Source: Azoarcus sp. DN11
Lineage (GTDB): Bacteria > Pseudomonadota > Gammaproteobacteria > Burkholderiales > Rhodocyclaceae
Assembly: GCF_003628555.1 (NCBI RefSeq)
Contig: NZ_CP021731.1
Location: 4,526,001-4,590,000 of the forward strand
DNA: 64,000 nt
Direction: 5' to 3'
Part shown: piece after piece, positions 1 through 17,195 of the stretch
Layout: each line of letters opens with the position of its first letter
Numbering within the stretch: position 1 is the stretch's first letter
The notes under the pieces: generated by a model
Database searches by the model: none
Told to the model about the DNA's origin: nothing
What the model saw: the letters and a program-made list of their open reading frames with translations, nothing else
Program-made: the position numbers and the translations under genes

Positions 1-629
1 TCGGCGATCAGGAAGCGGTCCATGAAGATCCGACCCTCGATGTCCAGCCCCATCATGTGGCGGATCGGACTGCGCGCGCCGTCGGCGACGATCAGCCAGC
101 CGGTGTCGATGCCGTAGGCGCCGTCGGGCGTCTCGACGCGCAGGCTGACGCGCTCGCCGTGATCGGTCACGGCGATCACGTTGTTCTTCCAGCGCAGGTC
201 GATGTTCGGCAAGGACTGCGCGCGGCGCACGAGGTATTCCTCGAGGTAGTACTGCTGCAGGTTGATCATGCCCGGGCGGTGGTGGTCCGGCTCGGGGCAG
301 AGGTTGAAGTTGAAGACCTCCTGCTCGCGGAAGAAGGTGCGGCCGACGTTCCACGACACGCCCTTCTGCACCATCTCCTCGGCGCAGCCGAGGCGGTCCA
401 TGATCTCCAGCGCGCGCTTCGCGTAGCACACGCCGCGCGAGCCGATCGACACCGTGTCGTCGTTGTCGAGCAGCACGACCGGCACGCCGTGGATCGCGAG
501 ATCGATCGCCGCCGCGAGTCCCACGGGACCGGCGCCGACGACCACGACCGGATGGCGTCCGTCGCGGCGTTCGGCAATCTCCGGCGGGCGGCGGTACTCG
601 AACTTCGGGTACTGGTACGAACTCAGCAC
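1..629 (-). CDS. FAD-dependent aromatic-ring monooxygenase (MhpA/PheA-like), 5' part only
   Basis: N-terminal ~209 residues of a class A flavoprotein hydroxylase; the rest lies beyond the left window edge. About 25 residues precede the dinucleotide-binding motif VVVVGAGPVGLAAAIDLA, followed by an acidic end of strand 2 (VVLLDND) and, near the edge, the second FAD motif region GWLIVADGARSPIRHMMG. This is the layout of 3-(3-hydroxyphenyl)propionate or phenol hydroxylases, which use NAD(P)H and O2 to hydroxylate aromatic rings in the cytoplasm. The GTG start at 629 is chosen because GAGGAG lies about 7 nt upstream. It diverges from an IclR-family gene, a common arrangement for aromatic catabolic genes. 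The exact substrate cannot be assigned from this fragment. Confidence 0.85.
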   Translation of the reverse strand, partial: MLSSYQYPKFEYRRPPEIAERRDGRHPVVVVGAGPVGLAAAIDLAIHGVPVVLLDNDDTVSIGSRGVCYAKRALEIMDRLGCAEEMVQKGVSWNVGRTFFREQEVFNFNLCPEPDHHRPGMINLQQYYLEEYLVRRAQSLPNIDLRWKNNVIAVTDHGERVSLRVETPDGAYGIDTGWLIVADGARSPIRHMMGLDIEGRIFMDRFLIA

Positions 630-758
630 GGGCGTCTCCTCCTCGATGTCGCACTTTCCGGCGTTGCCTTCTGTGGGGCGTGTCACCGGTAATTTTCTAT
701 CGCATCCGTCCTGCAGCACGCAGGGATGAATCATCCTAGATGTCAGTTTGTTAACCGT

Positions 759-783
759 CAATTCATTTGCTATCGTTGAATTG
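759..783. promoter_or_regulatory. Inverted repeat, candidate IclR operator in divergent promoter region
   Basis: CAATTCA (759-765) and TGAATTG (777-783) form a perfect 7-bp inverted repeat with an 11-nt spacer. The site lies in the AT-richer part of the 197-bp gap between the divergent monooxygenase and IclR genes. Its size and position suit an operator for the adjacent regulator. This is inferred from position and symmetry only. Confidence 0.4.
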
Positions 784-826
784 AAAGCAGCATGCAGCGC
801 CCCCGCTGCTGCTAAGATTCGCCCCC

Positions 827-1636
827 ATGGGAGACAACAGATTGGACAACGAAACACTCGAAGAGCGCCCGAGCGGCAAGAACGCCGACCGGCGCGGCAT
901 CCAGTCGATCGAAGTCGGCGGCGCGCTGCTGCAGGCGCTGGTCCGTCATGATGCGCCGATGATCCTCAAGGATCTCGCCCGCGAGGCGGGCATGCCGCCA
1001 GCCAAGGCCCACCCCTACCTCGTGAGCTTCGGCAAGCTCGGCCTGGTCGAACAGGATCCGGTGACCGGCCGCTATGGGCTGGGCGCCTTCGCGCTGCAGA
1101 TGGGCCTGTCGGCGCTGCACGGCGTGAGCCCGCTGCGGGTCGCGACGCCCGAGGCGGCGCGGCTGTCCGACGAGATCCAGCAGAACGTCGCGGTCGCCGT
1201 GTGGGGCAACCACGGCCCGACCATCGTCAGCATCGAGGAATGCAGCCGGCAGGTGCATGTGAACATGCGTGTCGGCACGGTCATGGATCTCCTCACCTCC
1301 GCCACCGGCCGCACCTTCGCCGCCTTCCTCCCCGCACGCATGACGACCGCCCTCATCGAGGACGAATTCGCCCGCCAGGCCCTCACGCGCGAACAGCTCG
1401 AGGCCGAGTTCGCCGAGATCCGCCGCGAGCGCCTCGCCCGCGCCCTCGGCAAACCGATCCCCGGCATCAACGCCTTCACCGCCCCGATCTTCGACCATAA
1501 CGGCCACCTCGCGCTGGCAATCACCGCGATGGGCCCCGCGGCGAGCTTCGACCCGGCATGGGACGGCGCGGTGGCGACGAAGCTGCGCGCGTGTGCAAAG
1601 GCGATTTCGGCACGGCTGGGAAAGACAGAGCCCTGA
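827..1636 (+). CDS. IclR-family transcriptional regulator
   Basis: 269-residue regulator with an N-terminal winged helix-turn-helix (about residues 28-90, including LLQALVRHDAPMILKDLAREAG and a wing ending RYGLGAFALQMG) and a C-terminal IclR effector-binding domain with GTVMDLLTSATGRTFAAFLP and AFTAPIFDHNGHLALAITAMG. Family members bind small aromatic or organic acids and control adjacent catabolic genes, so the divergent monooxygenase is the likely target. The start is uncertain: ATG 827 has no clear ribosome site, while the in-frame TTG at 842 follows GGGAG by about 8 nt, giving a product five residues shorter. A TAAGAT box at 813-818 could make the ATG transcript nearly leaderless. Confidence 0.9.
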   Translation: MGDNRLDNETLEERPSGKNADRRGIQSIEVGGALLQALVRHDAPMILKDLAREAGMPPAKAHPYLVSFGKLGLVEQDPVTGRYGLGAFALQMGLSALHGVSPLRVATPEAARLSDEIQQNVAVAVWGNHGPTIVSIEECSRQVHVNMRVGTVMDLLTSATGRTFAAFLPARMTTALIEDEFARQALTREQLEAEFAEIRRERLARALGKPIPGINAFTAPIFDHNGHLALAITAMGPAASFDPAWDGAVATKLRACAKAISARLGKTEP

Positions 1637-1755
1637 GCGGATAGCGAACCGCGCGCTGCACCGCTCGCAGCCGTTCAACCAAGACAAGGGCATTCTTCAC
1701 CGCCTCGCGGGGGGCGTGATCGCTATGATTGCGTCACGTCACCCCCGAGGCTGCA

Positions 1756-2742
1756 GTGAGCCAGACCGACCGCATCATCCGCATCCGCAAGTTCCTCGAC
1801 GAACGGCGCTCCGTGAGCCGCCGCATGCTGCTGGAAACGCTCGAGGTCTCCCCGGCCACCCTCAAGCGCGACATCGCCTTCCTGCGCAACGTCATGAACA
1901 TCCCGATCGCGTGGGCCCCCGAGCTCGGGGGCTACCGCCTCGATCCCCGCTTGACCAGCGGCGCGCAGTACGAACTGCCCGGCCTATGGTTCTCCGACAA
2001 GGAAATCCACGCGCTGCTGACGATGCAGCATCTCCTCGCCAACCTCGACCCCGGCGGGCTGCTCGCCCCGCACGTGCAACCGCTCGTCGCCCGCCTCAAC
2101 AAGCTTTTGGGCGCCACCGACCATCCCGCCGACGAAATCCGCCGCCGCGTGCTGATCGTCGGCATCGGCAAGCGCAGCCTCAAGCTCGCCCACTTCGAGA
2201 ACATCGGCTCCGCACTGCTGCGCCGCAAGCGCCTCGCCATCCGCTACTACGCCCGCGGCCGCGACGCCGAGACGGCGCGCGAAATCTCGCCGCAACGCCT
2301 CGTCCATTACCGCGAAAACTGGTACCTCGACGCCTGGTGCCACTTGCGCGGCGCGTTGCGCAACTTCGCCGTCGACAGCATCCGCCAGGTCGAACTCCTC
2401 GACACCGTAGCGAAAGACATCCCCAACCAGACCCTCGACACCGTCCTCGGCCCCGGCTACGGCATCTTCGCTGGCAATGAATTGCGGTGGGCGCGGCTGC
2501 GCTTCTCGGCGGAACGGGCACGCTGGGTCGCGACCGAACACTGGCACCCTCAGCAGCGCGGCGCATTCGAGGCGGATGGCAGCTACGTGCTCGAAGTGCC
2601 GTATGCCGATCACCGGGAACTGATGATGGATGTGCTGAAGCACGGGACGCATTGCGAGGTGCTGGGGCCGGAGGGGTTGCGGCGGGTGGTGGCGGCGGAG
2701 GTGGCGGGGATGGCGAAAATATATGATGAAGGAAAATCGTGA
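1756..2742 (+). CDS. WYL-domain transcriptional regulator next to the cas operon
   Basis: About 328 residues. The N-terminal HTH (residues ~1-55, TDRIIRIRKFLDERR ... LKRDIAFLRN) is of the DeoR-like type paired with WYL proteins. The WYL core lies around residues 160-215, with RLVHYRENWYLDAWCH carrying a WYL-type motif, followed by a C-terminal WCX-like segment. WYL domains sense nucleic-acid or nucleotide ligands, and WYL proteins recur beside CRISPR-Cas and other defence loci (for example Sll7009, a repressor of a Synechocystis CRISPR subtype). GTG 1756 is preferred because CGAGG lies 5 nt upstream; an in-frame TTG at 1729 would add nine residues. It ends 66 bp before cas3 in the same orientation, so it may regulate the operon. 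No operator could be pinned down. Confidence 0.87.
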   Translation: MSQTDRIIRIRKFLDERRSVSRRMLLETLEVSPATLKRDIAFLRNVMNIPIAWAPELGGYRLDPRLTSGAQYELPGLWFSDKEIHALLTMQHLLANLDPGGLLAPHVQPLVARLNKLLGATDHPADEIRRRVLIVGIGKRSLKLAHFENIGSALLRRKRLAIRYYARGRDAETAREISPQRLVHYRENWYLDAWCHLRGALRNFAVDSIRQVELLDTVAKDIPNQTLDTVLGPGYGIFAGNELRWARLRFSAERARWVATEHWHPQQRGAFEADGSYVLEVPYADHRELMMDVLKHGTHCEVLGPEGLRRVVAAEVAGMAKIYDEGKS

Positions 2743-2808
2743 GAGGCTCATCCTGTGAGCCCGGCAAGGCCGACAATCGGTGCCAACGACATTGGAAGGC
2801 AGGATTCG

Positions 2809-5418
2809 ATGAGCATTCCGGAATACTTTCGGTACTGGGGCAAGGCGCGGCCACAGGACGGTGGCGAGGCCGGATATCACTTGCTGCCGTATCACTGCCT
2901 GGACGTCGCTGCCGTCGCAGCCGTCTGGTGGAATTCCAGTGCAAATCTCCGGCGTCAGTTCAAGGTGCTTGTCGATGACGAAATCGACGAACCCCAGTTG
3001 CGCGCCTGGATATTCTTCTTTGTCGCTTTGCACGACCTGGGCAAGTTCGACGTGCGGTTTCAAATGAAGTCTGCCGAGGCGCTCGCTGCGCTACGGCCAG
3101 AATGGCATGCAAAAGATTTGCCCTACCGCGCCGATGCCGAGCGATACGGACACGGAGAATATGGACTGCGCTGGTTCATCCGGGAGTATCCGAACCTGCT
3201 CGGCATGGACAAACAGAACGAGGAAGTCGTCGACGCGTGGGTGCCCTGGCTCGCAGCGGTCGCGGGACATCACGGCAAGGTGCCCCGCCACCGCGAGCGG
3301 GCGCGCCAGCCAGATGCAGAAGATTGGATCGTCCAGCGCGACCACGACGCCCGCCGCGCCTGGTTCGACACCCTCGAGGAAATCTTTCTCAAACCTTGCG
3401 ACCTGAGTCTTGCCGACCTTCCGCCGCCGCTCCAGCGCGACGACGCCGCCTACCTTGCCGGCTTCTGCGCCATATGTGACTGGCTAGGCTCGAACGAGGA
3501 GTGGTTCGAATATCGCGCGAGTAGCGGGAATGTCGTAGCGTATTTCAACGAACGAGTCGCGAAGATCGAGCGCGAGCGCCTCATCGAACGATGCGGCCTG
3601 GCCGCCCACGCAGCGCCGTACCGTGGCGTGAAGGCCCTTCTCGGGGCTGAAGAGTCGCCGCGCCAGCTCCAGACTTTGGTCGACGAACTGCCTGTGAACG
3701 CCGGCCTGACGCTTGTAGAGGCACCGACCGGCTCGGGCAAGACCGAGACCGCCCTCGCCTATGCATGGAGGCTACTCGATGCCGGCATTGCCGACAGCAT
3801 CGTCTTCGCCCTCCCCACTCAGGCGACGGCAAACGCGATGTGGGAGCGGCTCAACCGTTTTGCAGACACCCTTTTCGGGAAGGGCTCGAATCTCGTGCTG
3901 GCCCACGGCAAGGCGCGCTGGCATGAGGGCCACAGACACCTGAAAGAGGCCGCGCGGCAACGGAGCGCGCAGGAGGACGAGGACATTCGGGTCCAATGCG
4001 CGGAGTGGCTCGCTGAAAGCCGCAAGCGCGTCTTCCTCGGGCAGATCGGCGTGTGCACGATCGACCAGGTTCTGCTTTCCGTGCTCCCGCTGCGGCACAA
4101 GTTCGTCCGCGGTTTCGGAGTCATGAAATCCGTGCTGATCGTCGACGAAGTGCATGCCTACGATCACTACATGTACGGCTTGCTCGACGGCGTCCTGCGG
4201 CAACAGCGGCGAGGCGGCGGCAGCGCGATCCTCCTGTCCGCCACCCTGCCGCACGGCCAGCGTCGCCGCCTTTGTGAAGCTTGGGGGTCAACCGAACCGC
4301 CGGTCGCAGACGCGCCCTACCCGCTCCTCACACATGTCGATGCAACCGGCAGCGTTTCCTTCATCAAGCTGGAAGATCCCGTCCGGCACCCGCCGTCGCG
4401 CGCCGTCGCCATCGAAACCCTCGCGCTCGCGGGACTCCTTCCCGACGACGCGCTCATCTCGCGCGTCATCGCCGCCGCCCATGCGGGCGCCCGCGTCGCC
4501 ATCGTCTGCAATCTGGTGAACGATGCGCAGAGACTCGCCGGCGCGCTACGCGCCGCGACCGACATCCCCATAGACCTCTTTCACGCTCGCTTCCGCTTCA
4601 TCGACCGCCAGGCGCGCGAGCAGGCGGTGCTTGCACAATATGGCCGCGACGCCGCGCGGAACTCCGGGCGCATTCTCGTGGCGACGCAGGTGGTCGAGCA
4701 AAGCCTCGACCTCGACTTCGACTGGCTGATCACCCAGATCTGTCCGGTTGACCTGCTCTTCCAACGCATGGGGCGACTTCACCGCCACATGCGGGTGCGC
4801 CCGGGAGGTTTCGAAAGCCCGCATTGCACAATCCTCGCCCCACCGGATAACGACTACGGACTGCACAAGGTCGTCTACGGAAACACGCGCGTCCTGTGGC
4901 GCACGCAGCAGCTCATTGGCGCGGACAAAGTCTCGTTCCCAACGGCGTATCGCGAATGGATCGAACGCGTGTACGAGCGTGATGACTGGAGCGACGAACC
5001 CGAAAACATCGCCTTCGAATACGACAAGTTCCACGTCGAGCAGAAGGCCAAGTTCGACCACGCGCAAGTCATCGCGAACGACGACATGAATCCGCTCGCC
5101 GACAGCGACGAGAACGTCCGCGCCCTGACACGCGACGGCGAAATGTCGCTCTCGGTCGTCCTGATCGACGCCGAAGGCCGATTGATCGGAGAACGGGACC
5201 CCATCGACGAGGCGGATGAATGGGAACGGCGCGAGCGTATCGCCCTGAGCGCGGTGGGCGTACCTGCGAGTTGGAAGGGTTCCCTGCCCGAATCGGACGA
5301 AGACGGCCTGATCTGGTTAAAGGTCAGCCCGGTCTCGGATGGCGAATGGTTTGGTGTCGGCGTGAATGCCGGCTTTCGGTACAGCAGTGAATATGGTCTG
5401 GAAAAGGAGGAGGCGTGA
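2809..5418 (+). CDS. cas3: Cas3, type I-E nuclease-helicase
   Basis: 869-residue HD nuclease fused to a superfamily 2 helicase, recruited by Cascade to nick, unwind and degrade the displaced target strand. HD-domain residues include H29/D32 (YHCLD), the metal-binding H75-D76 pair (ALHDLGKF) and H154-H155 (AGHHGKVP). Helicase motifs are Walker A APTGSGKT at 305-312, DEVH at 446-449, LLSATLP, and motif VI near QRMGRLHRH. All key residues are present, so it looks active. ATG 2809 is chosen for the ribosome site AAGGCAGG just upstream; an upstream in-frame GTG at 2755 would add 18 unlikely residues. Its stop overlaps the cas8e start by 4 nt, indicating translational coupling. Confidence 0.97.
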   Translation: MSIPEYFRYWGKARPQDGGEAGYHLLPYHCLDVAAVAAVWWNSSANLRRQFKVLVDDEIDEPQLRAWIFFFVALHDLGKFDVRFQMKSAEALAALRPEWHAKDLPYRADAERYGHGEYGLRWFIREYPNLLGMDKQNEEVVDAWVPWLAAVAGHHGKVPRHRERARQPDAEDWIVQRDHDARRAWFDTLEEIFLKPCDLSLADLPPPLQRDDAAYLAGFCAICDWLGSNEEWFEYRASSGNVVAYFNERVAKIERERLIERCGLAAHAAPYRGVKALLGAEESPRQLQTLVDELPVNAGLTLVEAPTGSGKTETALAYAWRLLDAGIADSIVFALPTQATANAMWERLNRFADTLFGKGSNLVLAHGKARWHEGHRHLKEAARQRSAQEDEDIRVQCAEWLAESRKRVFLGQIGVCTIDQVLLSVLPLRHKFVRGFGVMKSVLIVDEVHAYDHYMYGLLDGVLRQQRRGGGSAILLSATLPHGQRRRLCEAWGSTEPPVADAPYPLLTHVDATGSVSFIKLEDPVRHPPSRAVAIETLALAGLLPDDALISRVIAAAHAGARVAIVCNLVNDAQRLAGALRAATDIPIDLFHARFRFIDRQAREQAVLAQYGRDAARNSGRILVATQVVEQSLDLDFDWLITQICPVDLLFQRMGRLHRHMRVRPGGFESPHCTILAPPDNDYGLHKVVYGNTRVLWRTQQLIGADKVSFPTAYREWIERVYERDDWSDEPENIAFEYDKFHVEQKAKFDHAQVIANDDMNPLADSDENVRALTRDGEMSLSVVLIDAEGRLIGERDPIDEADEWERRERIALSAVGVPASWKGSLPESDEDGLIWLKVSPVSDGEWFGVGVNAGFRYSSEYGLEKEEA

Positions 5419-6902
5419 ATCTCTATACCGATGCGTGGATCCCCGTGCGTGGCAGCACAGTCCCGCTGAGCCTCAGGCAGTTGCTGTGCGAACCCGACGA
5501 GAGGCAGTTGTCGCTTCCTCGGGACGACTTGGAGCTCGCGTGCCTGCAACTCCTGATTTCGCTGGTGCAGGTCGCACTACCTCCGCCAGACCGGCAGTCT
5601 TGGCGCAAGCGGATGGAAACACCCCTTGCCGAGGCCGAGTACAACAATGCGGTCGCATCGCTTATGGAGTGGTTCGATCTCGACCACCCGACCCATCTGT
5701 TCATGCAGACACGCGGCGTTTCCGCGGCCGAACCCACACCGATCCAGAAGCTGATGGTCGGCCTACCCGAGGGCAACAATCACAGCTTCTTCAACGCTCC
5801 AGGCGAGGTGCAGCATCTTTCACCGGCTGCTACCGCTATCGCGCTGTTCAACCAGGCAGCCACCGCCCCGAACTTCGGCGGCGGGTTCAAGGGTGGCCTC
5901 CGCGGCACGCCGATCACCACTCTGGTGGCAGGGGATGATCTACGACAGACCGTCTGGCGCAACGTCCTCAGTGAGGAGCGCCTCCGGCGGATGCTGCCGT
6001 GGTACGAAGAGACGAAACGGCAAGCGCCGGTTTGGGTCGAGCCAATCCGGGAGAAGGAGAAGATTCAGTTCAACCAGATCGGTCTGCTGCGAGGGCTGTT
6101 CTGGCAGCCTGCGCACATCGAGTTGATCCGGTCGCCGGCTCCGGCAGTGTGTGATTTTCTTGGAGGCCCGGAGCAGTCGGGATATAGCGGCTTCAATAAG
6201 GAAAAATTCGTATTCGACGTCGTCGGCCTGTGGCCACATCTGCATAGTCCGAGCGAGTTCGAGATCAAGAAGGATGAGCGCAGCGACCGCTTTCTCGCCT
6301 TCACGACGACGGCACCGGCATGGACGCAGTGCTCTCGATTCCTTTTCAGTCAGGACGACGGCAAGTCCGGTCACCGCCCCGCAGCTGTCGTCGAGCAGTG
6401 GCGTGCGGATGGTAGCGGCGAGCTTCGGCTCATCGTCGGCGGATATCGGAACAAGCAGGCGTCGATCCTGCAGCGGCGGCACGAGTTCTTCAGCATCGGT
6501 GATGGCTGGCAAGACGAATGTGGCCAGGACGCGATCGAATGGGCGGTGAGTCGCGCGCTGGACTGCAAGAGCCTCTTGCGCGGCAAGCTCTATTCGGTGG
6601 TGAAGGGCAATCGCGAAAAGGGCATCAAGGCACTGGGCGTCGATATCCACGAGGCCGCCGAAAACCACTTCTACCAGCGGACCGAATCTCTAATCCACGC
6701 TTGGTTGCGCACCATGACCCGTGCCGAGCGGCGGGCGGAGAAGACTGCTCTGCTCGATCAACTCGCCGACCGCTGTCTGCAGATCTTCCAGGAAGCGACG
6801 CATCCCTACTGCCGCAATCCGGCACTGGTGCGCACTGTCGCGCTCGCCAGGCGCGGTCTTGCCGCGGAACTCAAGAAAATGAAGGAGGCCACCGCATCAT
6901 GA
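5415..6902 (+). CDS. casA: Cas8e (Cse1/CasA), large Cascade subunit
   Basis: 495-residue type I-E large subunit. In this family it recognises the PAM, helps open the target duplex and recruits Cas3. Characteristic segments are the N-terminal FNLYTDAWIPV-type opening (here NLYTDAWIPVRG), LMEWFDLDHPTHLFMQ, the segment NHSFFNAPGEV and the glycine-rich loop FGGGFKGGLRGTPITTLV typical of Cse1. The C-terminus is helical (TMTRAERRAEKTALLDQLADR), as expected for the four-helix bundle. The GTG start lies within a GTGA overlap with the cas3 stop, and the preceding GGAGGAGG serves as ribosome site. Length is close to E. coli CasA (502). Confidence 0.96.
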   Translation: MNLYTDAWIPVRGSTVPLSLRQLLCEPDERQLSLPRDDLELACLQLLISLVQVALPPPDRQSWRKRMETPLAEAEYNNAVASLMEWFDLDHPTHLFMQTRGVSAAEPTPIQKLMVGLPEGNNHSFFNAPGEVQHLSPAATAIALFNQAATAPNFGGGFKGGLRGTPITTLVAGDDLRQTVWRNVLSEERLRRMLPWYEETKRQAPVWVEPIREKEKIQFNQIGLLRGLFWQPAHIELIRSPAPAVCDFLGGPEQSGYSGFNKEKFVFDVVGLWPHLHSPSEFEIKKDERSDRFLAFTTTAPAWTQCSRFLFSQDDGKSGHRPAAVVEQWRADGSGELRLIVGGYRNKQASILQRRHEFFSIGDGWQDECGQDAIEWAVSRALDCKSLLRGKLYSVVKGNREKGIKALGVDIHEAAENHFYQRTESLIHAWLRTMTRAERRAEKTALLDQLADRCLQIFQEATHPYCRNPALVRTVALARRGLAAELKKMKEATAS

Positions 6903-7363
6903 GCGATAAGCAAACATTGGCACTGCCGGACTTCGTCGAGCTGTACAAGCGTTATCGCAGCATGGCAGACCGAGACGGCGACTTCCGTTCGCAACTCGGC
7001 AAACGCGTCGGCGCTCCGGACGAGTTGGGAATGCGTCCGGCCTTCTATAGGCTATTCCCAGGCACCCGCCCTCAGTCGTGGGCCGAACGCGTCGTCTTCT
7101 TTCTTCCGTTCTGCCGTCATGCAGACGATGCAAAGCCGCTCGGCGCACAACTGGCTGCCGAACGAGTATCCGAGGCACGTCTCTTTCAGGTCATCCGGGC
7201 CGATGAACCGAACGACCTGATCCAACTGCGGCGGCTTGTCCAGCATGTCGAGCCGTCCGTCGATTGGACCGAATTCGGACGCCTCCTGTATTTCTGGAAC
7301 GAGCGCGCCAAGCGCACGCTGCTCGAAGACTTCTTCATCCATCAACCCGCCAAGGCGAAGTGA
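6899..7363 (+). CDS. casB: Cse2 (CasB), small Cascade subunit
   Basis: 154-residue helical protein of the Cse2 family. Two copies line the Cascade belly and stabilise crRNA and the displaced DNA strand. Recognisable parts are LGKRVGAPDELGMRPAFYRL near residue 33, a helix resembling WAERVVFFLPFC, and the basic C-terminal run FWNERAKRTLLEDFF. It starts at an ATGA overlap with the cas8e stop (4 nt) and is followed 12 nt later by cas7e, so the three genes are one translational block. Length fits the family (about 160). Confidence 0.94.
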   Translation: MSDKQTLALPDFVELYKRYRSMADRDGDFRSQLGKRVGAPDELGMRPAFYRLFPGTRPQSWAERVVFFLPFCRHADDAKPLGAQLAAERVSEARLFQVIRADEPNDLIQLRRLVQHVEPSVDWTEFGRLLYFWNERAKRTLLEDFFIHQPAKAK

Positions 7364-7375
7364 AAGGGAGCAAAC

Positions 7376-8617
7376 ATGAACAAGAATTTCATCAATTTCC
7401 ACGTCCTGATTTCCCATAGCCCCTCGTGCCTGAACCGGGACGACATGAACATGCAGAAGACCGCGGTCTTCGGCGGCGTGCGCCGCGTGCGCGTTTCCAG
7501 CCAGAGCCTGAAGTATTGGCTGCGCAATAGCGACTACTACAAACGCATTTTTGGCAAGCCGTCTGTCCGCACCAAACGTCTCGATTTGGCAATTCCGTGG
7601 CTTGTCGAGGAACTTGGGAAGGAATTCGAGCCAGATCTGATTCGGAAGGCAGCCACTGCATTCGTGCGGTCGGCGAAGAAATCCGACGCAAGTGAGGTGG
7701 TTGATGTCGAGGAAGAGGAGGAAGGGAACGGAGCGAAGGGCGATAAGAAGTTGGCTGTTGCCCCGTGGGTAGTTGCCGAAATGAAAGTGATCTGCTCCGT
7801 TATCGAAGCTGTAGAACGTGATGGCCTAACGGACGATGAACGGGAAAAAGCGCTTAAGCGCGTTGGAAAAATGGTGGGCAAGGGTAATGACCGGCGGGCG
7901 CTGACTGAGGCCGACTGCCTTCGCGAAGGAATCGAGCAAAAAATCCAAAGGCATCTGAACGAAAGTTCTCAGGCCATTGCAACTGCACTGGGTTCTGCTA
8001 TGGATGTTGCACTATCAGGCCGGATGGCTACGAGCGGTCTTATGACGTCCATCGACGGTGCACTTGCTGTGGCGCCTGCGATTACTACCCATGCCGCGGA
8101 GTCGGACATCGATTGGTTTACGGCGGTTGATGATCTTGTTGATGTGGGATCAGGTCACCTTGATACACAGGAGTTTTCGGCAGGTGTCTTTTATCGTTAC
8201 GCGAGCCTGAACCTCCAGCAATTGCAGAATAACCTTGGCGGCGGGAGCCGTGACCAAGCACTGAAAGTTGCCGTGCATGCACTGCACCTTCTGGCCACGG
8301 TCGTACCGAGCGCCAAGCAGCAATCCTTCGCAGCTCACAATCTGGCCGACTTCGCCATGGTGAGTGTATCGGACCAACCGATTTCCCTCGCAAACGCCTT
8401 CGAGAGATCCGTCAAAAATCAAGACGGCTTCCTCAAGCCTTCTGTGACAGCGCTCCTGAGTTACTGGGACAAGATTCACCGTGGCTATGGAATAGACGAA
8501 CGTACAGCGGTCTTTGATCTGACCGAAACTTCCGGTGGTCCCGGTGGCCCCGACTTGGCACGTAAAGCAACCTTGCCTGATCTCGAGAAGTGGCTATTGG
8601 GCGACGGTCTGGTTTGA
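7376..8617 (+). CDS. cas7e: Cas7e (Cse4/CasC), Cascade backbone subunit with an acidic insertion
   Basis: 413-residue RAMP protein; six copies form the crRNA-binding backbone. The N-terminus is diagnostic (FINFHVLISHSPSCLNRDD, QKTAVFGGVRRVRVSSQSLKYWLR), as are SGRMATSGLM and GVFYRYASLNLQQLQNNL further on. It is about 50 residues longer than E. coli CasC (363). The extra length falls around residues 97-175, with an acidic tract VEEEEEG followed by a lysine-rich stretch. From about 7640 to 8560 the DNA is visibly less GC-rich than the rest of the operon. A strong AAAGGGAG ribosome site precedes ATG 7376. Product identity is secure; the role of the insertion is unknown. Confidence 0.96.
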   Translation: MNKNFINFHVLISHSPSCLNRDDMNMQKTAVFGGVRRVRVSSQSLKYWLRNSDYYKRIFGKPSVRTKRLDLAIPWLVEELGKEFEPDLIRKAATAFVRSAKKSDASEVVDVEEEEEGNGAKGDKKLAVAPWVVAEMKVICSVIEAVERDGLTDDEREKALKRVGKMVGKGNDRRALTEADCLREGIEQKIQRHLNESSQAIATALGSAMDVALSGRMATSGLMTSIDGALAVAPAITTHAAESDIDWFTAVDDLVDVGSGHLDTQEFSAGVFYRYASLNLQQLQNNLGGGSRDQALKVAVHALHLLATVVPSAKQQSFAAHNLADFAMVSVSDQPISLANAFERSVKNQDGFLKPSVTALLSYWDKIHRGYGIDERTAVFDLTETSGGPGGPDLARKATLPDLEKWLLGDGLV

Positions 8618-8626
8618 GGTCCTGCC

Positions 8627-9292
8627 ATGGCTAATTTCCTGATCCTGCAACTCGACGGCGTCCTGCAGGCGTGGGGCGACCATAGCTTCGAGGATTACCG
8701 ACCCACGGTCGGCTTTCCGACCCGCTCGGGCCTGCTCGGACTGCTCGCGGCCTGTCTCGGCATCGACCGGGGAGATACCGCCGGCTTGACTGACCTGGAC
8801 CACAGCGTCTGGTTCACCGTGAGGGCGGAAGATCGAAGCGAGGACGCGCCCGCCCATAAACTCACCGACTACCACACGGTCCTCGAAGCCCGGACTGTCG
8901 ATATCCGCAAACCACGAAAGTTTCCGGTCGAATCTCGGCGCGAATACCTGTGCGATGCCATATTCAGCGTCGCAGTCGAGCAAGCCGGCGCTGTAGTCAC
9001 GCTCGACCACATTGCCGCCGCCCTGCAGCGCCCAGTATTCACGCCGAGCCTCGGCCGCCGCTCCTGCCCCTTGTCACGACCGCTGTTCGCTGCACGACTA
9101 GCGGCTGATAACCCGGCCCACGCCTTGCAGCTCTGGTCTCCGCGCGGCGGAACGCTTTACAGCGACTCCCCGGCACTCGCCAGCGACCGAGAGTTGCGCC
9201 TGCGCGACGTTCCCCGCTACGGGCGGGTGCGGCAATTCGGCACGCGGCGCGTGTTCGTCAGCGTCGAAGGAGCAGGCCATGTACCTGAGTAA
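8627..9292 (+). CDS. cas5e: Cas5e (CasD), crRNA 5'-handle binding Cascade subunit
   Basis: 221-residue RAMP-fold protein that caps the 5' handle of the crRNA in type I-E Cascade. The N-terminal MANFLILQLDGVLQAWGDHS and following PTVGFPTRSGLLGLLAACLG are highly typical of CasD. Further family features are the DYHTVLEART stretch, the SRREYLCDAIFSV segment and the LGRRSCPLSRPL loop. It begins 9 nt after cas7e and overlaps cas6e by 14 nt, placing it in the same transcript. Length matches E. coli CasD (224). Confidence 0.96.
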   Translation: MANFLILQLDGVLQAWGDHSFEDYRPTVGFPTRSGLLGLLAACLGIDRGDTAGLTDLDHSVWFTVRAEDRSEDAPAHKLTDYHTVLEARTVDIRKPRKFPVESRREYLCDAIFSVAVEQAGAVVTLDHIAAALQRPVFTPSLGRRSCPLSRPLFAARLAADNPAHALQLWSPRGGTLYSDSPALASDRELRLRDVPRYGRVRQFGTRRVFVSVEGAGHVPE

Positions 9293-9872
9293 AGTGCAGC
9301 TCGACTGGAAGGACACGCGCAATCCCTACGACTGGCATCGTGCCTTATGGCGCCTGTTTCCCGAGCAACCCGAGGAGAAGCGGGCCTTCCTCTTTCGGGT
9401 CGAACAGCAGCGCCCGGGACAAGGCGCACTGATCCTACTGCAGTCGCCCACAGCTCCTTATCCCTACGACGCCGCCACGCGCGTCATTGCCGAGCCCAAA
9501 CGGCTCGACCTCTCGGCCATGACGGAAGGGTTATCGCTGCGCTTCCGGCTGATGGCGAATGTCATCAAGACCATTCGTGACAGCGAGGATACTGAGCGGC
9601 CCATCCGTGTCCCGTTGATCAAGGAAGAGCAGCAACTGGAATGGCTGAGGCGCAAGCTTGCCGATTCGGCGGTGATTGAAGCCGTGACGATCACACCGAA
9701 CACGCCGCTTTTCTTCAGGCGGAAGGGACAGGCTGGCAAACTCGCGACGATCACCTTCGATGGACGGCTACGCGTTTTCGATCCAGACGGCTTTCAGCGT
9801 TTGATGGAGAGCGGCGTCGGTGCCGCGAAGAGCTTCGGTTGCGGCCTACTGAGCGTGGCACGCGGCGCATGA
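9279..9872 (+). CDS. cas6e: Cas6e (CasE), crRNA-processing endoribonuclease
   Basis: 197-residue metal-independent RNase that cuts the pre-crRNA repeat hairpin and stays bound to its 3' end. The catalytic histidine falls exactly at residue 20 (YDWHRALWRLF), as in E. coli Cas6e. The glycine-rich RNA-binding loop is near the C-terminus (GVGAAKSFGCGLLSV). Its substrate would be the 29-bp repeat of the downstream array, which contains a CCCCACG/CGTGGGG stem. It overlaps cas5e by 14 nt. It is followed by a 74-nt gap, the largest inside the cas gene series, which holds the TA palindrome. Confidence 0.96.
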   Translation: MYLSKVQLDWKDTRNPYDWHRALWRLFPEQPEEKRAFLFRVEQQRPGQGALILLQSPTAPYPYDAATRVIAEPKRLDLSAMTEGLSLRFRLMANVIKTIRDSEDTERPIRVPLIKEEQQLEWLRRKLADSAVIEAVTITPNTPLFFRRKGQAGKLATITFDGRLRVFDPDGFQRLMESGVGAAKSFGCGLLSVARGA

Positions 9873-9906
9873 CGAAGCCCATGGCGAGGCGGGAAGCCCC
9901 AGAAAT

Positions 9907-9928
9907 TGTGCTATCTTTTGATAGCACA
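9907..9928. promoter_or_regulatory. Perfect palindrome upstream of the embedded TA module (candidate operator)
   Basis: TGTGCTATC (9907-9915) and GATAGCACA (9920-9928) are perfect 9-bp arms around TTTT. The palindrome ends 18 nt before the antitoxin ATG, in the only sizeable gap of the cas gene series. Phd/YefM-type antitoxins autorepress by binding palindromes of this kind, so this is the likely TA operator and promoter region. The same promoter could carry on into cas1-cas2. A -35/-10 pair could not be assigned with confidence. Confidence 0.6.
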
Positions 9929-9946
9929 GTTCCTCGGGAGGCCACT

Positions 9947-10288
9947 ATGGAAACCTTCACCGTCCGCGACCTGCGCGAGCGCACCGGGGAGCTGATCCGC
10001 GGTGCCGAGGCGGGCAAACTGTCCGTCGTCACCAAGCACGGCAACCCGGTCTTCGTTGCCGTGCCCTTCGACGACGCCTTGCTGGAAAGCGGGGTGCGGA
10101 CTTCGCTGGCAATCAAGCTGTTCGACGAGGGCACGCTGACGCTGGCGCAGGCCGCGAAGTTTGCCGGACTGGGCATTGAGGAGATGATCGAACGCATGGG
10201 CGCTGCGGGCGTCGCGGTCGTGCAGCAGACGCCGAACGAGCTCAACGATGAGCTCGACGTGATCGCAAATCATGGTCGCCGCCGATAG
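9947..10288 (+). CDS. Antitoxin with Phd/YefM-like N-terminus and UPF0175-like C-terminus
   Basis: 113 residues. Residues 1-45 (TFTVRDLRERTGELIRGAEA ... TKHGNPVFVAVPF) match the Phd/YefM DNA-binding antitoxin fold. Residues ~48-113 (SLAIKLFDEGTLTLAQAAKF then AGLGIEEMIERMGAAGV) match the UPF0175 family, a small helical family predicted to be antitoxins of DUF3368/PIN toxins. It would bind its own promoter and neutralise the overlapping downstream toxin. ATG 9947 is preceded by CGGGAGG; the reading frame is open upstream but that part overlaps cas6e out of frame. It overlaps the toxin gene by 17 nt. Family calls are by motif reading; the two-family composition is an inference. Confidence 0.8.
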   Translation: METFTVRDLRERTGELIRGAEAGKLSVVTKHGNPVFVAVPFDDALLESGVRTSLAIKLFDEGTLTLAQAAKFAGLGIEEMIERMGAAGVAVVQQTPNELNDELDVIANHGRRR

Positions 10289-10754
10289 CGGCCCGCTGAT
10301 CGCATTGGCCCGACTGGATCTGCTCCGGTTGCTGCCCCGCCATTTCGACGAAGTACTGGTTCCGGGCGAAGTGTTCGCCGAATGCACCGTCCATCCGCAG
10401 CGCCCCGGCGCTCGGGCCATTCTCTCAGCGCGCGAGTCCGGATTGTTCGAGTGCGTCGAGGTGACCGGCACGGAGCAGTTCGCCGCCGATCATCTGCTCG
10501 ACGCGGGCGAAGCGGCTGCGCTGATCCTCGCGCGCGACCGCGCCTGCCCTGCCCTCGTCGATGAACGCAAAGGGCGACGCGTCGCCCGCCAGCTGGGCAT
10601 ACCGGTCGTGGGCACCGTCGGGATACTCCTTGTCGCGCGCAAGGCCGGCGATGTCGACGCCCTGGCTCCGCTTTTCGATGCGCTGTCCTCGTTCGGATAT
10701 CGCGTGCCGACCGATCTGATGTGCGAAGCGTTGCGCCGCGCAGGAGAAATCTGA
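10272..10754 (+). CDS. DUF3368 PIN-like toxin (putative ribonuclease)
   Basis: 160-residue PIN-fold protein of the DUF3368 type. The acidic residues expected for a metal-dependent PIN nuclease are present: D5 (ADSGPLIAL), E33/E37 (VPGEVFAEC), D77/E80 (LLDAGEAAALILA) and D97/E98 (LVDERKGRR). The GIPVVGTVGILLVARKAG segment is typical of DUF3368. PIN toxins generally cleave RNA to arrest growth, and the antitoxin is the overlapping upstream gene. Its stop lies 2 nt before the cas1 GTG, so it is embedded in the cas operon between interference and adaptation genes. The catalytic set looks intact, so this is probably not a decayed remnant. The RNA target is unknown. Confidence 0.82.
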   Translation: MVAADSGPLIALARLDLLRLLPRHFDEVLVPGEVFAECTVHPQRPGARAILSARESGLFECVEVTGTEQFAADHLLDAGEAAALILARDRACPALVDERKGRRVARQLGIPVVGTVGILLVARKAGDVDALAPLFDALSSFGYRVPTDLMCEALRRAGEI

Positions 10755-10756
10755 AC

Positions 10757-11960
<1,204 letters not shown>

Positions 11961-12048
11961 CAACCCGAAAATTCGATCGGCATCGCAAATCGTTGGTAGA
12001 ATTTTCCGCTTCGAAATTTCCATGTGAATTCATGGAGATGGAAGAAGT
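11961..12048 (+). promoter_or_regulatory. CRISPR leader with probable pre-crRNA promoter
   Basis: 88 bp between cas2 and the first repeat, clearly AT-richer than its surroundings. An extended -10 element TGGTAGAAT ends at 12002 (hexamer TAGAAT at 11997-12002), with only a weak -35 candidate upstream (TTCGAT 11972-11977, long 19-nt spacer). This would start transcription about 40 nt before repeat 1. A short inverted repeat CCATG (12020-12024) / CATGG (12031-12035) flanks TGAATT 14 bp before the first repeat, the leader-proximal zone where integration factors act. The opposite array end is degenerate, confirming this is the leader side. Confidence 0.75.
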
Positions 12049-15000
12049 GCGTTCCCCACGGGCGTGGGGATGAACCGGACGTAGACGAAGCGGCGCGTCG
12101 CGCGCTTCTGCGTTCCCCACGGGCGTGGGGATGAACCGAGTTCGAGGTTTCGTCCCACAGAGGAAACTCCGCGTTCCCCACGGGCGTGGGGATGAACCGG
12201 GGCCGTGCGTTTTGGTGAGCCGGCCGTAGGGGCGTTCCCCACGGGCGTGGGGATGAACCGTGACGAACTTCGAAAAGCGCGAGAGCTGGTCTGCGTTCCC
12301 CACGGGCGTGGGGATGAACCGACATGGCAATCAATTACGCAAAATTCTTCTCCGCGTTCCCCACGGGCGTGGGGATGAACCGAGCTTCGGCCTGCCGGAC
12401 AGCGTCGTGCATCAGCGTTCCCCACGGGCGTGGGGATGAACCGCCCGTAAGCCAGCAGGAAAAACGGCTTCAGCAGCGTTCCCCACGGGCGTGGGGATGA
12501 ACCGGCGCCGAACTCTCGCCCCTTGCGCTTCGGGCAGCGTTCCCCACGGGCGTGGGGATGAACCGGTCGTGTGGCTCGTTTGGGGCAATAAAGGGGGGCG
12601 TTCCCCACGGGCGTGGGGATGAACCGGTCGAGCGGTCGCCACCGGTCAAGGTCGAGCCGCGTTCCCCACGGGCGTGGGGATGAACCGAACTCGTCGTGCG
12701 TGTGGCGCGCGAATCGACCGCGTTCCCCACGGGCGTGGGGATGAACCGCGCTGCTGCCAGATCGGCAGCAGGTATTCGTAGCGTTCCCCACGGGCGTGGG
12801 GATGAACCGGTCCGCGAGGCCGCCGTCGCAGCCGTTCGCAAGCGTTCCCCACGGGCGTGGGGATGAACCGGGCATGGGCTGGAGCCCGGATGGTGCGCGG
12901 GAGCGTTCCCCACGGGCGTGGGGATGAACCGACAACCATTCGAACACACCACACGCGGCAACGGCGTTCCCCACGGGCGTGGGGATGAACCGGTGGCGTT
13001 CGGCGCGGCGGCGGTGTCGGTTTTGCGTTCCCCACGGGCGTGGGGATGAACCGATGGCCCCGGAGGAGCTATGCCGGCATGTGAAGCGTTCCCCACGGGC
13101 GTGGGGATGAACCGATCGGTTCCGCGCTCGGCCAGACCTTCAAGGGGCGTTCCCCACGGGCGTGGGGATGAACCGGCGGCGTTCTTCGGGCCGCGCCGCG
13201 CGACCTTGCGTTCCCCACGGGCGTGGGGATGAACCGTCCGGCGGCGCCCTCGCGTCGGCCAGCAAGGAGCGTTCCCCACGGGCGTGGGGATGAACCGCAC
13301 TACCTCACCCAGGCCCCGCGCCTGAGCCCGCGTTCCCCACGGGCGTGGGGATGAACCGCGTGTGGGACGTGGATCCGCTCCAAGTCACCCGCGTTCCCCA
13401 CGGGCGTGGGGATGAACCGGCCCCGGCTACAGCCTCGAAGACCGCGCGCCCCGCGTTCCCCACGGACGTGGGGATGAACCGGCGAGGCGTTCCGCCTCAG
13501 CGGGCGTGAGACGGCGTTCCCCACGGGCGTGGGGATGAACCGAAATCCGACAGATGGAGAAAGCAGCATGAAGCGCGTTCCCCACGGGCGTGGGGATGAA
13601 CCGCGCGACGGGCGGCCACCCGCTCCCGCGCCGCCGCGTTCCCCACGGGCGTGGGGATGAACCGGCTGATTGCTCATTGCCGGGCTCCACTCTCAAGCGT
13701 TCCCCACGGGCGTGGGGATGAACCGGCGGCCTGGGCGGCGGTGCGCGATGCGCGTCAGCGTTCCCCACGGGCGTGGGGATGAACCGCGCTACCACGACGA
13801 GGTGATGGCCTGGATGCGGCGTTCCCCACGGGCGTGGGGATGAACCGTTAGACCGGGGCGTGCGGCCCCTGTCCCGTCCTGCGTTCCCCACGGGCGTGGG
13901 GATGAACCGACCACATCCAAGACTCGCCGCGCCGATCTCTTGCGTTCCCCACGGGCGTGGGGATGAACCGGGCTCAACAACATCAACAGCCAGATGGCTG
14001 CGGCGTTCCCCACGGGCGTGGGGATGAACCGGCATCGGTGATGCTGCCGCCGTTGAGCGTGACGCGTTCCCCACGGGCGTGGGGATGAACCGCTGGTCGA
14101 GTCCGGGGTTGAGGTCTCGGGCACGCGTTCCCCACGGGCGTGGGGATGAACCGCCTCTCGCACCCGCTGCACGAAGGCGCGCATAGCGTTCCCCACGGGC
14201 GTGGGGATGAACCGACCCTCGGAATGAGCCCCCGCGCCCAGTCAATCGCGTTCCCCACGGGCGTGGGGATGAACCGGTCTTGTTCGTCATGAACACCCTC
14301 CCGGATGGGCGTTCCCCACGGGCGTGGGGATGAACCGGCTGCGACGAAGATATCGCGTGGCGGTGCATTGCGTTCCCCACGGGCGTGGGGATGAACCGCG
14401 GTTTGCCCGTCACGATTTCGCCCGCCTCGAGCGTTCCCCACGGGCGTGGGGATGAACCGACCTCCACGGAATGCACTGGTGCGACGTGCACGCGTTCCCC
14501 ACGGGCGTGGGGATGAACCGCATCGAGGATGCTGGTGCGCGCAGCAACTTCGGCGTTCCCCACGGGCGTGGGGATGAACCGCTTTTGCCGTTGCCCTTGC
14601 GCCCGGTAACGAGGCGTTCCCCACGGGCGTGGGGATGAACCGTTTCTTCCAGCCCCCCAACTGTTGCAGCGCGTGCGTTCCCCACGGGCGTGGGGATGAA
14701 CCGTTGTCGACGATGAGTTCCTGCTGCAGGTCGAGGCGTTCCCCACGGGCGTGGGGATGAACCGGCCGAGGACGAGGCTGGTATCGATGCCCTTCTCGCG
14801 TTCCCCACGGGCGTGGGGATGAACCGTCGTCGTTCCACCGATCTGATAGACCTCGACGGCGTTCCCCACGGGCGTGGGGATGAACCGGAATAGGACCTGT
14901 CGCGACACTGAGCGGATGCGCGTTCCCCACGGGCGTGGGGATGAACCGATGCGGAGCAACCTCACACCCACGTTGTTGCCGCGTTCCCCACGGGCGTGGG

Positions 15001-16300
15001 GATGAACCGTGGCAGGCGTGGCAGCCGGCGGCGAAGATGTCGCGTTCCCCACGGGCGTGGGGATGAACCGCTAAATTTCCGAGCGAAAAAAAGCCCGCTC
15101 AGGCGTTCCCCACGGGCGTGGGGATGAACCTTGCCCGAGATGTACGGGATCTCGATCTCGCCTGCGTTCCCCACGGGCGTGGGGATGAACCGAAGAGGGG
15201 GTGAGCATGAAAGACGCATGCCGGGCGTTCCCCACGGGCGTGGGGATGAACCGTTCTTCGAGTGGCTGGCGACATGGGCGGTCATCGCGTTCCCCACGGG
15301 CGTGGGGATGAACCGACTCCTGCACAACGCTGCTTTGCCGTGGGCTCGCGTTCCCCACGGGCGTGGGGATGAACCGTATCAATGCGCGACTGAGCCACAA
15401 TCGCCGCCGCGTTCCCCACGGGCGTGGGGATGAACCGCCGACTGCGGTTTTACCCGATAGTTCTCTTCCGTGTTCCCCACGGGCGTGGGGATGAACCGAA
15501 CTCGTCGTCGCTCGCGCAATTGCCCATGTCGCGTTCCCCACGGGCGTGGGGATGAACCGAGATCCGGCCCGAGCTGATCGAGGATGCGCAAGCGTTCCCC
15601 ACGGGCGTGGGGATGAACCGACTATTTTCAATCAGGCCGGCATAGGATCGAAGCGTTCCCCACGGGCGTGGGGATGAACCGCTCATCCGCAATTTGGGTT
15701 TTGCTGCCCGCGTCGCGTTCCCCACGGGCGTGGGGATGAACCGGATTCAACAGTTACTGGCGGGACGAGCCGGTCAGCGTTCCCCACGGGCGTGGGGATG
15801 AACCGGCGGGCTGATCATCTGGTGTGGTGCGTAACTAGCGTTCCCCACGGGCGTGGGGATGAACCGCCAAATCTTGGTGTTCCCTCTAGTGCAGCGCGGC
15901 GTTCCCCACGGGCGTGGGGATGAACCGCCAATCGGCCACGGCTTGCCGGCGGTCGGGTCGCGTTCCCCACGGGCGTGGGGATGAACCGGCGCCGTGGGGT
16001 TGATCGGAGCGACCGGAGAAGCGTTCCCCACGGGCGTGGGGATGAACCGAGCCCGCGAGGTAGGCCGCTGGATCGCGAAGCGCGTTCCCCACGGGCGTGG
16101 GGATGAACCGCAGTTCTACTTTCCCGGCCAGCCGAGCCTCGCCGCGTTCCCCACGGGCGTGGGGATGAACCGGGTACTTTTGGGAAACGTCCCATGATGG
16201 CGCTGCGTTCCCCACGGGCGTGGGGATGAACCGCCTTGATCGTCATGGCCGGCGCGCTGCTCGCGCTCGTTCCCCACGGGCGCGGTGTCGGGGTAAACGG
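12049..16300 (+). CRISPR. Type I-E CRISPR array, 69 intact repeats plus one degenerate terminal repeat
   Basis: The 29-bp repeat begins GCGTTCCCCACG and ends GGGGATGAACCG, with an internal stem CCCCACG/CGTGGGG, the type I-E pattern. Intact repeats start at 12049 and run to the copy at 16205-16233. Spacers are 32 nt except eight of 33 nt (numbers 23, 30, 36, 45, 53, 60, 61, 67). Counted from repeat starts there are 69 repeats and 68 spacers. A 69th spacer (16234-16266) ends at a decayed repeat from 16267 that matches in its first 16 bases (15/16) and then diverges. Only three intact repeats vary: the copy at 13453 (G to A at position 14), 15103 (last base T instead of G) and 15470 (C to T at position 2). 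No duplicated spacer was seen by eye. Confidence 0.99.
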
Positions 16301-16415
16301 AACGAATGTGACGAAGGTTCCCCGTACACTGGGGCGAACTCCCATCAGAGTACGATCATGGTCAACCACGTGCGATGATGCCTTCTCGAAGAATGCTCGC
16401 GCGAGTGTTACGCCC

Positions 16416-17195
16416 ATGAATACCTTGGTAACTGCGTCACGACGCCACCGACTTCGTGAATGTCAGCCTCGGTGGGGCGCAGTCGGTGCGGTGGCTCTGA
16501 CGCTTATGTCGCCCGGCCCCGCACAGGCGCAGCAGATGCCAGTCATCGCCGTCGACGTTGGCCACACCCTCGCCGCCCCCGGCGCCATCAGCGCGCGCGG
16601 CCGCACCGAATTCGCGTTCAACCGTGAGCTGGCCGGGCGCGTCGTTGAGGCGCTCGAACGCCTCGGTCTGCGCGCCGAACTGATCAACGCCGACGGGCGC
16701 ATCGAATCGTTGCAGGCCCGGCCGGCCCGCGCCGCCGACGCGGATTTCCTGATTTCGATCCACCACGACTCGGTCAGCGGGCGCTACCTCACGCCGTGGG
16801 ACTGGCAGGGAATGCCGCTGGATTTCAGCGACCTGTGGGCGGGCCACTCGCTCTTCGTGTCACGCGACAATCCGGACCCCGGTGCGAGCCTGACGTGCGC
16901 GTCGGCGATCGGTCTGCGGCTGCAGCGCGCCGGCTTCGTCCCCACGGACAAGAACCGCATCCGCCGCGACACGGCCGACGCGCAGCTTGCGATCCACTAT
17001 TACGACAATCTCGTCGTGCTGTACCGCGCCCGCCAGCCTGCGGTGTTGTTCGAGGCCGGCGTGATCAAGCACCGCGACGAGGAACTGCTGCTGCGCGATC
17101 CGGACCGCCAGCAGCGCATGGCTGGGGAGATCGCCACCGGCATCGCCGCCTGCGTCACGGCCGGCGGCATCGCGACCGCGCATCGGGCGGGCTGA
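16416..17195 (+). CDS. N-acetylmuramoyl-L-alanine amidase (Amidase_3 family), exported
   Basis: 259 residues. A basic N-terminus and hydrophobic stretch ending in PGPAQAQQ form a signal peptide (cleavage around residue 38). The mature part has Amidase_3 zinc-binding features: VIAVDVGHT near the start, an early glutamate (RTEFAFN), ISIHHDSVSG, and the catalytic glutamate region AVLFEAGVIKH. Family members cleave the bond between N-acetylmuramic acid and L-alanine in periplasmic peptidoglycan. ATG 16416 is the best start for a signal peptide although no strong ribosome site is visible; the frame stays open upstream into the degenerate repeat. It lies about 116 bp beyond the array end. Confidence 0.85.
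   Translation: MNTLVTASRRHRLRECQPRWGAVGAVALTLMSPGPAQAQQMPVIAVDVGHTLAAPGAISARGRTEFAFNRELAGRVVEALERLGLRAELINADGRIESLQARPARAADADFLISIHHDSVSGRYLTPWDWQGMPLDFSDLWAGHSLFVSRDNPDPGASLTCASAIGLRLQRAGFVPTDKNRIRRDTADAQLAIHYYDNLVVLYRARQPAVLFEAGVIKHRDEELLLRDPDRQQRMAGEIATGIAACVTAGGIATAHRAG

Follow-up and report, generated by a model that had tools for sequence, protein, structure and literature searches.

The position directly 5' of cas1 in type I-E CRISPR-Cas operons as a recurrent slot for interchangeable toxin-antitoxin genes

We describe a toxin-antitoxin (TA) gene pair located between cas6e and cas1 in a type I-E operon of cas genes and clustered regularly interspaced short palindromic repeats (CRISPR) in Azoarcus sp. 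DN11, and the occupation of the same position in other bacteria. The window, i.e., the whole stretch of DNA that was analysed, is 64,000 nucleotides (nt) long (contig NZ_CP021731.1, positions 4,526,001 to 4,590,000), and coordinates given without a locus identifier refer to it. The operon in the window is a complete type I-E operon with the following features.

2755-5418, + strand: cas3, interference gene (Pfam/NCBIfam)
5415-6902, + strand: cse1, interference gene (Pfam/NCBIfam)
about 6893-7363, + strand: cse2, interference gene (Pfam/NCBIfam)
7376-8617, + strand: cas7e, interference gene (Pfam/NCBIfam)
8627-9292, + strand: cas5e, interference gene (Pfam/NCBIfam)
9279-9872, + strand: cas6e, upstream edge of the slot (TIGR01907, 7.2e-35)
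9907-9928, no strand: inverted repeat, perfect 9-bp arms with a TTTT centre, probable antitoxin operator
9947-10288, + strand: antitoxin, 113 amino acids, Phd-like N-terminus fused to UPF0175 (Pfam/NCBIfam)
10272-10754, + strand: toxin, 160 amino acids, DUF3368, PIN-like predicted ribonuclease (Pfam PF11848)
10757-11683, + strand: cas1e, GTG start (TIGR03638, 2e-111)
11664-11960, + strand: cas2e (TIGR01873, 9.7e-34)
12050-16233, + strand: CRISPR array of 69 repeats, of which 66 equal the reference repeat, with 68 different spacers

The first-pass annotation had reported a complete TA pair between cas6e and cas1 in the orientation of the operon, and the coordinates and anatomy confirm it; the 17-nt overlap of the antitoxin and toxin genes and the 2-nt gap before cas1 are both exact. 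As in type II TA systems, the two genes are adjacent and co-directional members of known TA families. The sequence AGGAGA within the 3' end of the toxin gene could act as a ribosome binding site of cas1e, and no terminator-like site was found on the plus strand at 9700-12060.

The antitoxin matched UPF0175 (PF03683) at 3.4e-10 in Pfam. Its N-terminus matched Phd (PF02604) at 3.6e-6, which is under the Pfam cut-off, and phd_fam of NCBIfam at 1.1e-6, which is over the cut-off. Among solved structures, the antitoxin profile matched VapB46 (6jqy) at 5.5e-4, with two designed proteins ranking alongside. In the toxin, the DUF3368 match (2.3e-8) covers only residues 112-157 in the C-terminal part, and NCBIfam gave no match; this toxin is the single DUF3368 match in the host genome. 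In the comparison of the toxin profile with 12 pooled PIN toxins (a set that includes the two non-slot loci L094 and L257 and the PINc pieces of L185), hhalign gave 86%, as against 0.1-0.2% for the ParE and GNAT controls. The PINb, PINc, VapC1, and VapC2 sets taken singly gave only 0.3-1.0%, and the solved structures gave one weak match (E 0.09); because of these values, a PIN fold of the toxin is likely rather than shown.

As also expected of a type II toxin, the acidic residues are kept and the gene is under purifying selection. Among 30 aligned toxins, D5, E37, and E80 are present in 30/30 and D97 in 28/30. Thus, of the PIN acidic residues that the first-pass annotation had regarded as intact, these four stand, and E33, D77, and E98 fall outside the columns conserved at 90% or more. 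The loci nearest to that of the window belong to A. toluvorans, A. diolicum, and A. anaerobium, and on this ground the host was assigned to Aromatoleum. The ratio of nonsynonymous to synonymous substitution rates (dN/dS) among the four Aromatoleum loci lies at 0.11-0.20 in the toxin gene and 0.04-0.11 in the antitoxin gene, and cas1 has values of 0.02-0.05.

The third feature of a type II module, an inverted-repeat site 5' of the antitoxin, is also present. The 22-bp repeat at 9907-9928 reads TGTGCTATC-TTTT-GATAGCACA, with perfect 9-bp arms, and stands 18 nt before the antitoxin start; position 9907 had been taken as the start of the feature in the first-pass annotation, in which the repeat itself was unnamed. 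The 4.96-Mb genome has no second copy of the repeat, even with up to 3 mismatches allowed. The motif was recognisable, by reading, 5' of 22 of the 30 homologous slot antitoxins, and 19 of these 22 motifs had p<=0.04 against 100 mononucleotide shuffles. It is kept although toxin identity to the window at these homologous loci is frequently no more than about 40%. The inverted repeat is a probable operator of the antitoxin. It overlaps TGnTATC(A/T)T, which resembles an extended -10 element and which we infer to be part of a promoter.

Of 200 relatives searched for the toxin, 24 have it. The search yielded 29 loci from other genomes, and cas1 or a piece of it lay within about 1.5 kb in 10 of these. 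Cas1 loci were then surveyed irrespective of their TA content. Cas1 matches were obtained in 36 of 399 genomes of an order draw, 51 of 395 of a family draw, and 30 of 369 of a class draw, and a named genome-collection set was composed of the best 80 of 579 loci. Cas1 matches of 32-38% identity (15 in the order draw and 18 in the family draw) were left out, neither fetched nor typed. The 166 loci were reduced to 141 non-redundant loci, 134 of which have cas6e upstream; we excluded the seven that do not (L108, L134, L143, L144, L205, L225, and L257) as well as the edge fragment L146, which holds an antitoxin and a partial toxin and no cas1. In the excluded L257, an RHH-like/PIN pair precedes cas1. 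In L145, cas1 is cut by the contig end, and the locus was counted by hand and kept off the tree described below; L109, L182, and L199, rearranged loci with slots longer than 3 kb, were scored as not occupied and also kept off the tree. In L182, a CRISPR-array-like stretch of repeats of about 3.5 kb apparently lies between cas6e and cas1, as judged by eye from translated open reading frames (ORFs). L145 and L230 were excluded from the identity and alignment sets.

Of the 134 slots, 71 are occupied and 55 empty, with gaps of another sort in the remaining 8. TA genes or their remnants account for 68 of the 71 occupants; two of the others are Bro-N genes and one is a YhcG gene. Both partners were identified in 55 of the 68 TA loci (including L230, in which the toxin frame is short), only one partner in six (L183, L187, L266, L271, L281, and L282), and remnants in seven (L116, L139, L195, L251, L261, L264, and L270). 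The TA loci came from all the sources: 23 of 52 loci in the family and order draws, 13 of 28 in the class draw, and 31 of 53 in the de-duplicated named set, plus the window. Both genes of the window's TA type occupy the slot in 32 of the 134 loci. The recurrence for which the first-pass annotation had proposed a search is thus found, with TA genes in other genera and families. Its statement that the pair is not a passenger remnant also holds, given this recurrence, the conserved acidic residues, and the dN/dS of the toxin; as far as the sequence tells, the insertion is not unique, the toxin is not decayed, and its codons do not evolve neutrally. On the same three grounds, we ruled out a chance passenger.

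The occupants are of many kinds. Pfam supported both partners in the representatives of seven pairings: UPF0175/DUF3368, DUF433/DUF5615, Unstab_antitox/ParE, Phd/ParE, MazE/PIN, RHH_1/PIN, and Gp49/HTH_37. One partner was supported in others, namely PIN or ParE with an unmatched small protein, GNAT, a nucleotidyltransferase, HTH_3, and HipA_C. Pfam was run on the representatives, from which models were then made to assign the remaining ORFs. For ORFs unmatched in Pfam, the partner labels HigA, MNT, HEPN, and RHH are ones that we presume from position and similarity. Two tandem modules, UPF0175/DUF3368 followed by RHH-like/PIN, share one slot in L189, and several TAs share one in L185. The Bro-N genes are those of two Elusimicrobia metagenome-assembled genomes (L283:6111-6992 and L285:6156-6992; the Pfam call was made on L285 only) and overlap cas1 by 4 nt.

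The placement of these genes is regular. Each of the 133 slot ORFs that belong to the modelled classes is co-directional with cas1, and the last slot gene ends between -4 and +24 nt from the cas1 start in 58 of the 71 occupied loci. For the window-type TA, the median distance is 45 nt between cas6e and the antitoxin (29 loci) and 3 nt between the toxin and cas1 (28 loci); a distance of 389 nt in L194 is artefactual and results from the order of the ORFs. In the 36 other tabulated loci with an occupied slot, the difference has the same direction, with medians of 72.5 nt upstream (a lower bound) and 16 nt downstream. The median cas6e-cas1 distance in the 55 empty loci is 6 nt. Wide upstream and tight downstream spacing is what a unit with its own promoter would be expected to show.

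At the other junctions of the same operons, none of 611 carried a slot-class ORF, in a comparison with class models that were seeded from slot ORFs and are blind to TA kinds never found in the slot. The cas3-cse1 junction, a loose one with a gap of at least 250 nt in 18 of 102 loci, had no slot-class ORF either. In the first 57 loci, large gaps at other junctions were also inspected by eye for plus-strand ORFs, and only one frame was recognised, a transposase-like one that we take to be IS110-like. Fisher's exact test for the slot against the other junctions gave p 4e-59, a value that does not count events because the loci are related. Counts on a Cas1 tree are safer: in a FastTree tree of 130 rows (in which 39 of the 127 forks are weak and two warnings of long branches were given), the content of the slot changed at least 48 times when all states were distinguished and at least 24 times between occupied and not occupied. 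From these comparisons, we conclude that the position directly 5' of cas1 in type I-E operons is a recurrent slot for interchangeable TAs in a beta/gammaproteobacterial Cas1e clade, and the placement seems to be a recurrent one and not that of a one-off passenger.

These data bear on an explanation without any benefit to CRISPR, namely that TAs insert widely, persist because their loss is costly, and gather at a tolerant boundary between effector and adaptation genes. Self-retention of this kind would fit the preponderance of TAs over other genes in the occupied slots, the seven decayed or incomplete copies, and the slots with two or several TAs. It would not lead us to expect the loose cas3-cse1 junction to be free of slot-class ORFs, nor the close fit to the cas1 start, nor the retention of an operator motif where the toxins have diverged, nor the lack of slot TAs in the 33 further loci described below. 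We consider this explanation unlikely.

In Aromatoleum, the TA can be compared with both parts of the operon. The three Aromatoleum relatives share 90-98% identity with the window in the antitoxin, 81-96% in the toxin, and 95-99% in Cas1, as against 30-37% in Cas6 and 31-35% in Cas7. The sequences thus indicate that the TA stays with the adaptation genes cas1-cas2 while Cascade differs, and a link between TA and Cascade in Aromatoleum is ruled out by these identities. As a general phenomenon, adaptation modules that stay fixed while the effector modules next to them are exchanged have been described (PMC6452270). In L249, the genes before the TA are in a different order (by eye, cas6-cas7-cas5), and the TA still abuts cas1. 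Over 30 loci, the toxin correlated with Cas1 at rho 0.25 (permutation p 0.006), with Cas7 at 0.15 (p 0.03), and with Cas6 at 0.13 (p 0.05).

The first-pass annotation had suggested that the pair guards the cas locus in the manner of CreTA, in which case Cas proteins would hold the toxin down and the toxin would kill once the cas locus is inactivated. Apart from the location in a cas operon, which it shares with the CreTA RNA guards at type I cas loci (PMC12737573, PMC9458426, and PMC8501985), the window TA differs from these: it has a dedicated protein antitoxin with an operator-like site, no degenerate repeat was found, and the Aromatoleum slot TA is linked to cas1-cas2 rather than to Cascade, which differs between loci keeping the same TA. 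The best plus-strand match to the CRISPR repeat outside the array had 9 mismatches in 28 positions, and the minimum in each of 20 mononucleotide shuffles was 8-11; the best match inside cas genes had 11 mismatches, and an Rfam scan of 1-17000 at gathering scores gave no match. No non-array match exceeds the shuffles, which speaks against an antitoxin RNA of the CreTA kind.

Two loci in which cas genes have been lost are also relevant. In L320:4988-6480, an intact slot-type TA with the operator motif follows an N-terminally truncated cas6e (model positions 29-175 of 190); no cas1e follows the TA, and the adjoining CRISPR array has an unrelated repeat. Far upstream in this locus, there is a weak match to a Cas1 of another kind. 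In L321:5825-6844, an intact TA is followed by a short N-terminal cas1 remnant, and the locus is apparently a lost cas locus that left the TA behind. The solitary TA loci L322 and L323 had no clear cas remnant in the 12.5 kb inspected. With TAs that outlive cas6e or cas1, in addition to the repeat scan and the linkage to cas1-cas2, the guarding claim finds no support, and we regard such a guard as very improbable. The alternative raised in the same annotation, a tie between the TA and adaptation, appears to fit better.

These remnants also bear on addiction, i.e., stabilisation by the TA of a linked block of TA, cas1-cas2, and array against deletion or allelic replacement. Loss of the block would leave a long-lived toxin without fresh antitoxin, and any TA would do, so the interchangeability of the slot genes would be explained; the constancy of TA and cas1-cas2 beside a differing Cascade in Aromatoleum and the purifying selection on the toxin agree with this. 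Addiction leaves the site just before cas1 unexplained, though, and sits poorly with the high turnover of at least 48 changes, the 55 empty slots, and L320 and L321, where cas genes were lost and the TA was kept. The seven plasmid loci, where addiction might pay most, were empty, and these were mostly of other classes. We think addiction doubtful as the reason for the slot.

We favour a mechanism in which the autoregulated promoter of the TA also drives cas1-cas2, to which we assign a probability of roughly 45%. The window module is an intact antitoxin-toxin pair with a probable operator of its own, and together with cas1-cas2 and the array it makes up a single block. The spacing asymmetry and the conserved operator motif suggest that antitoxin, toxin, cas1, and cas2 could constitute one unit with its own repressible promoter. 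Since the TA would bring this promoter, the genes for spacer acquisition could be read independently of Cascade. When the antitoxin falls upon phage infection or stress, the promoter would open and cas1-cas2 would rise, and the toxin would slow growth during spacer uptake.

Several points weigh against this interpretation. The TA is dispensable, because the slot is empty in 55 of the 134 loci. It is also limited in range: none of 33 further Cas1e loci had a slot TA (26 from a phylum-wide draw and 7 from plasmids, the latter inspected out of 153 plasmid records in which Cas1 was matched, and mostly of other classes); the slot is shorter than 200 nt in 31 of the 33, and the other two (L294 and L310) have no plausible TA frame. 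The Bro-N and YhcG occupants are not TAs. A sigma-70 consensus scan of the plus strand from 9700 to 12060 gave no promoter, 8 of the 30 homologous TAs have no operator motif, and the operator search covered the window-type TAs (UPF0175/DUF3368). Assignment of the toxin to PIN is insecure, as the values for the pooled and single PIN sets differ so widely. The correlation between toxin and Cas1 over the 30 loci is weak, as is its contrast with Cas7 and Cas6. Finally, promoter activity, antitoxin binding, co-transcription, toxicity, and any effect on adaptation are inferences from the sequence.

Two regulator genes precede the operon in the window. A gene for a WYL/WCX-domain regulator (1729-2742, + strand), possibly a regulator of the cas operon, lies directly 5' of cas3, and an IclR-family regulator gene (827-1636, + strand) lies 5' of it. 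In L225, a short ORF near cas1 resembles, by eye, the N-terminus of the WYL/WCX regulator.

The association of TAs with CRISPR in general has already been published. According to the portion of Altae-Tran et al. 2023 (PMC10910872) on TA and CRISPR, many TA modules are associated with CRISPR loci, where they could protect the cas genes; this section presents no fixed cas6e-cas1 slot, interchange of kinds, cas1-cas2 linkage, or taxonomic limit. Pages of a metagenome study (PMC6967390) list TA-like putative cas genes. The type II modules PIN-COG2886 (UPF0175) and PIN-COG2442 (DUF433) that Makarova et al. 2009 (PMC2701414) predicted share, in the passages on them, the antitoxin families, PIN-type partner toxins, and a DNA-binding antitoxin with the slot modules; the window TA differs from them in being embedded directly 5' of cas1. 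The coupling of suicide and immunity proposed in Makarova et al. 2012 (PMC3506569) has in common with our interpretation, in the part on this coupling, the idea that dormancy buys time for spacer integration; here, TA modules with antitoxins sit in the cas operons themselves. In the main-text passages of the open-access papers searched, no description of the cas6e-cas1 TA slot was found.

The slot TAs bear on two published statements: typical antitoxins are said to be missing from immunity loci (PMC3506569), and the link between TA and CRISPR loci is said not to be particularly strong (PMC2701414). They also touch on two open questions, the control of adaptation genes apart from interference genes and the coupling of CRISPR immunity to dormancy, for which a fixed slot with swappable TA modules offers many natural replicates. 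It is possible, and we propose it tentatively, that these operons represent a type I-E class in which spacer acquisition is wired to TA autoregulation. Many TA kinds may then serve as a stress-sensitive promoter switch of cas1-cas2, and the loss of antitoxin at infection would both slow growth and start memory formation.
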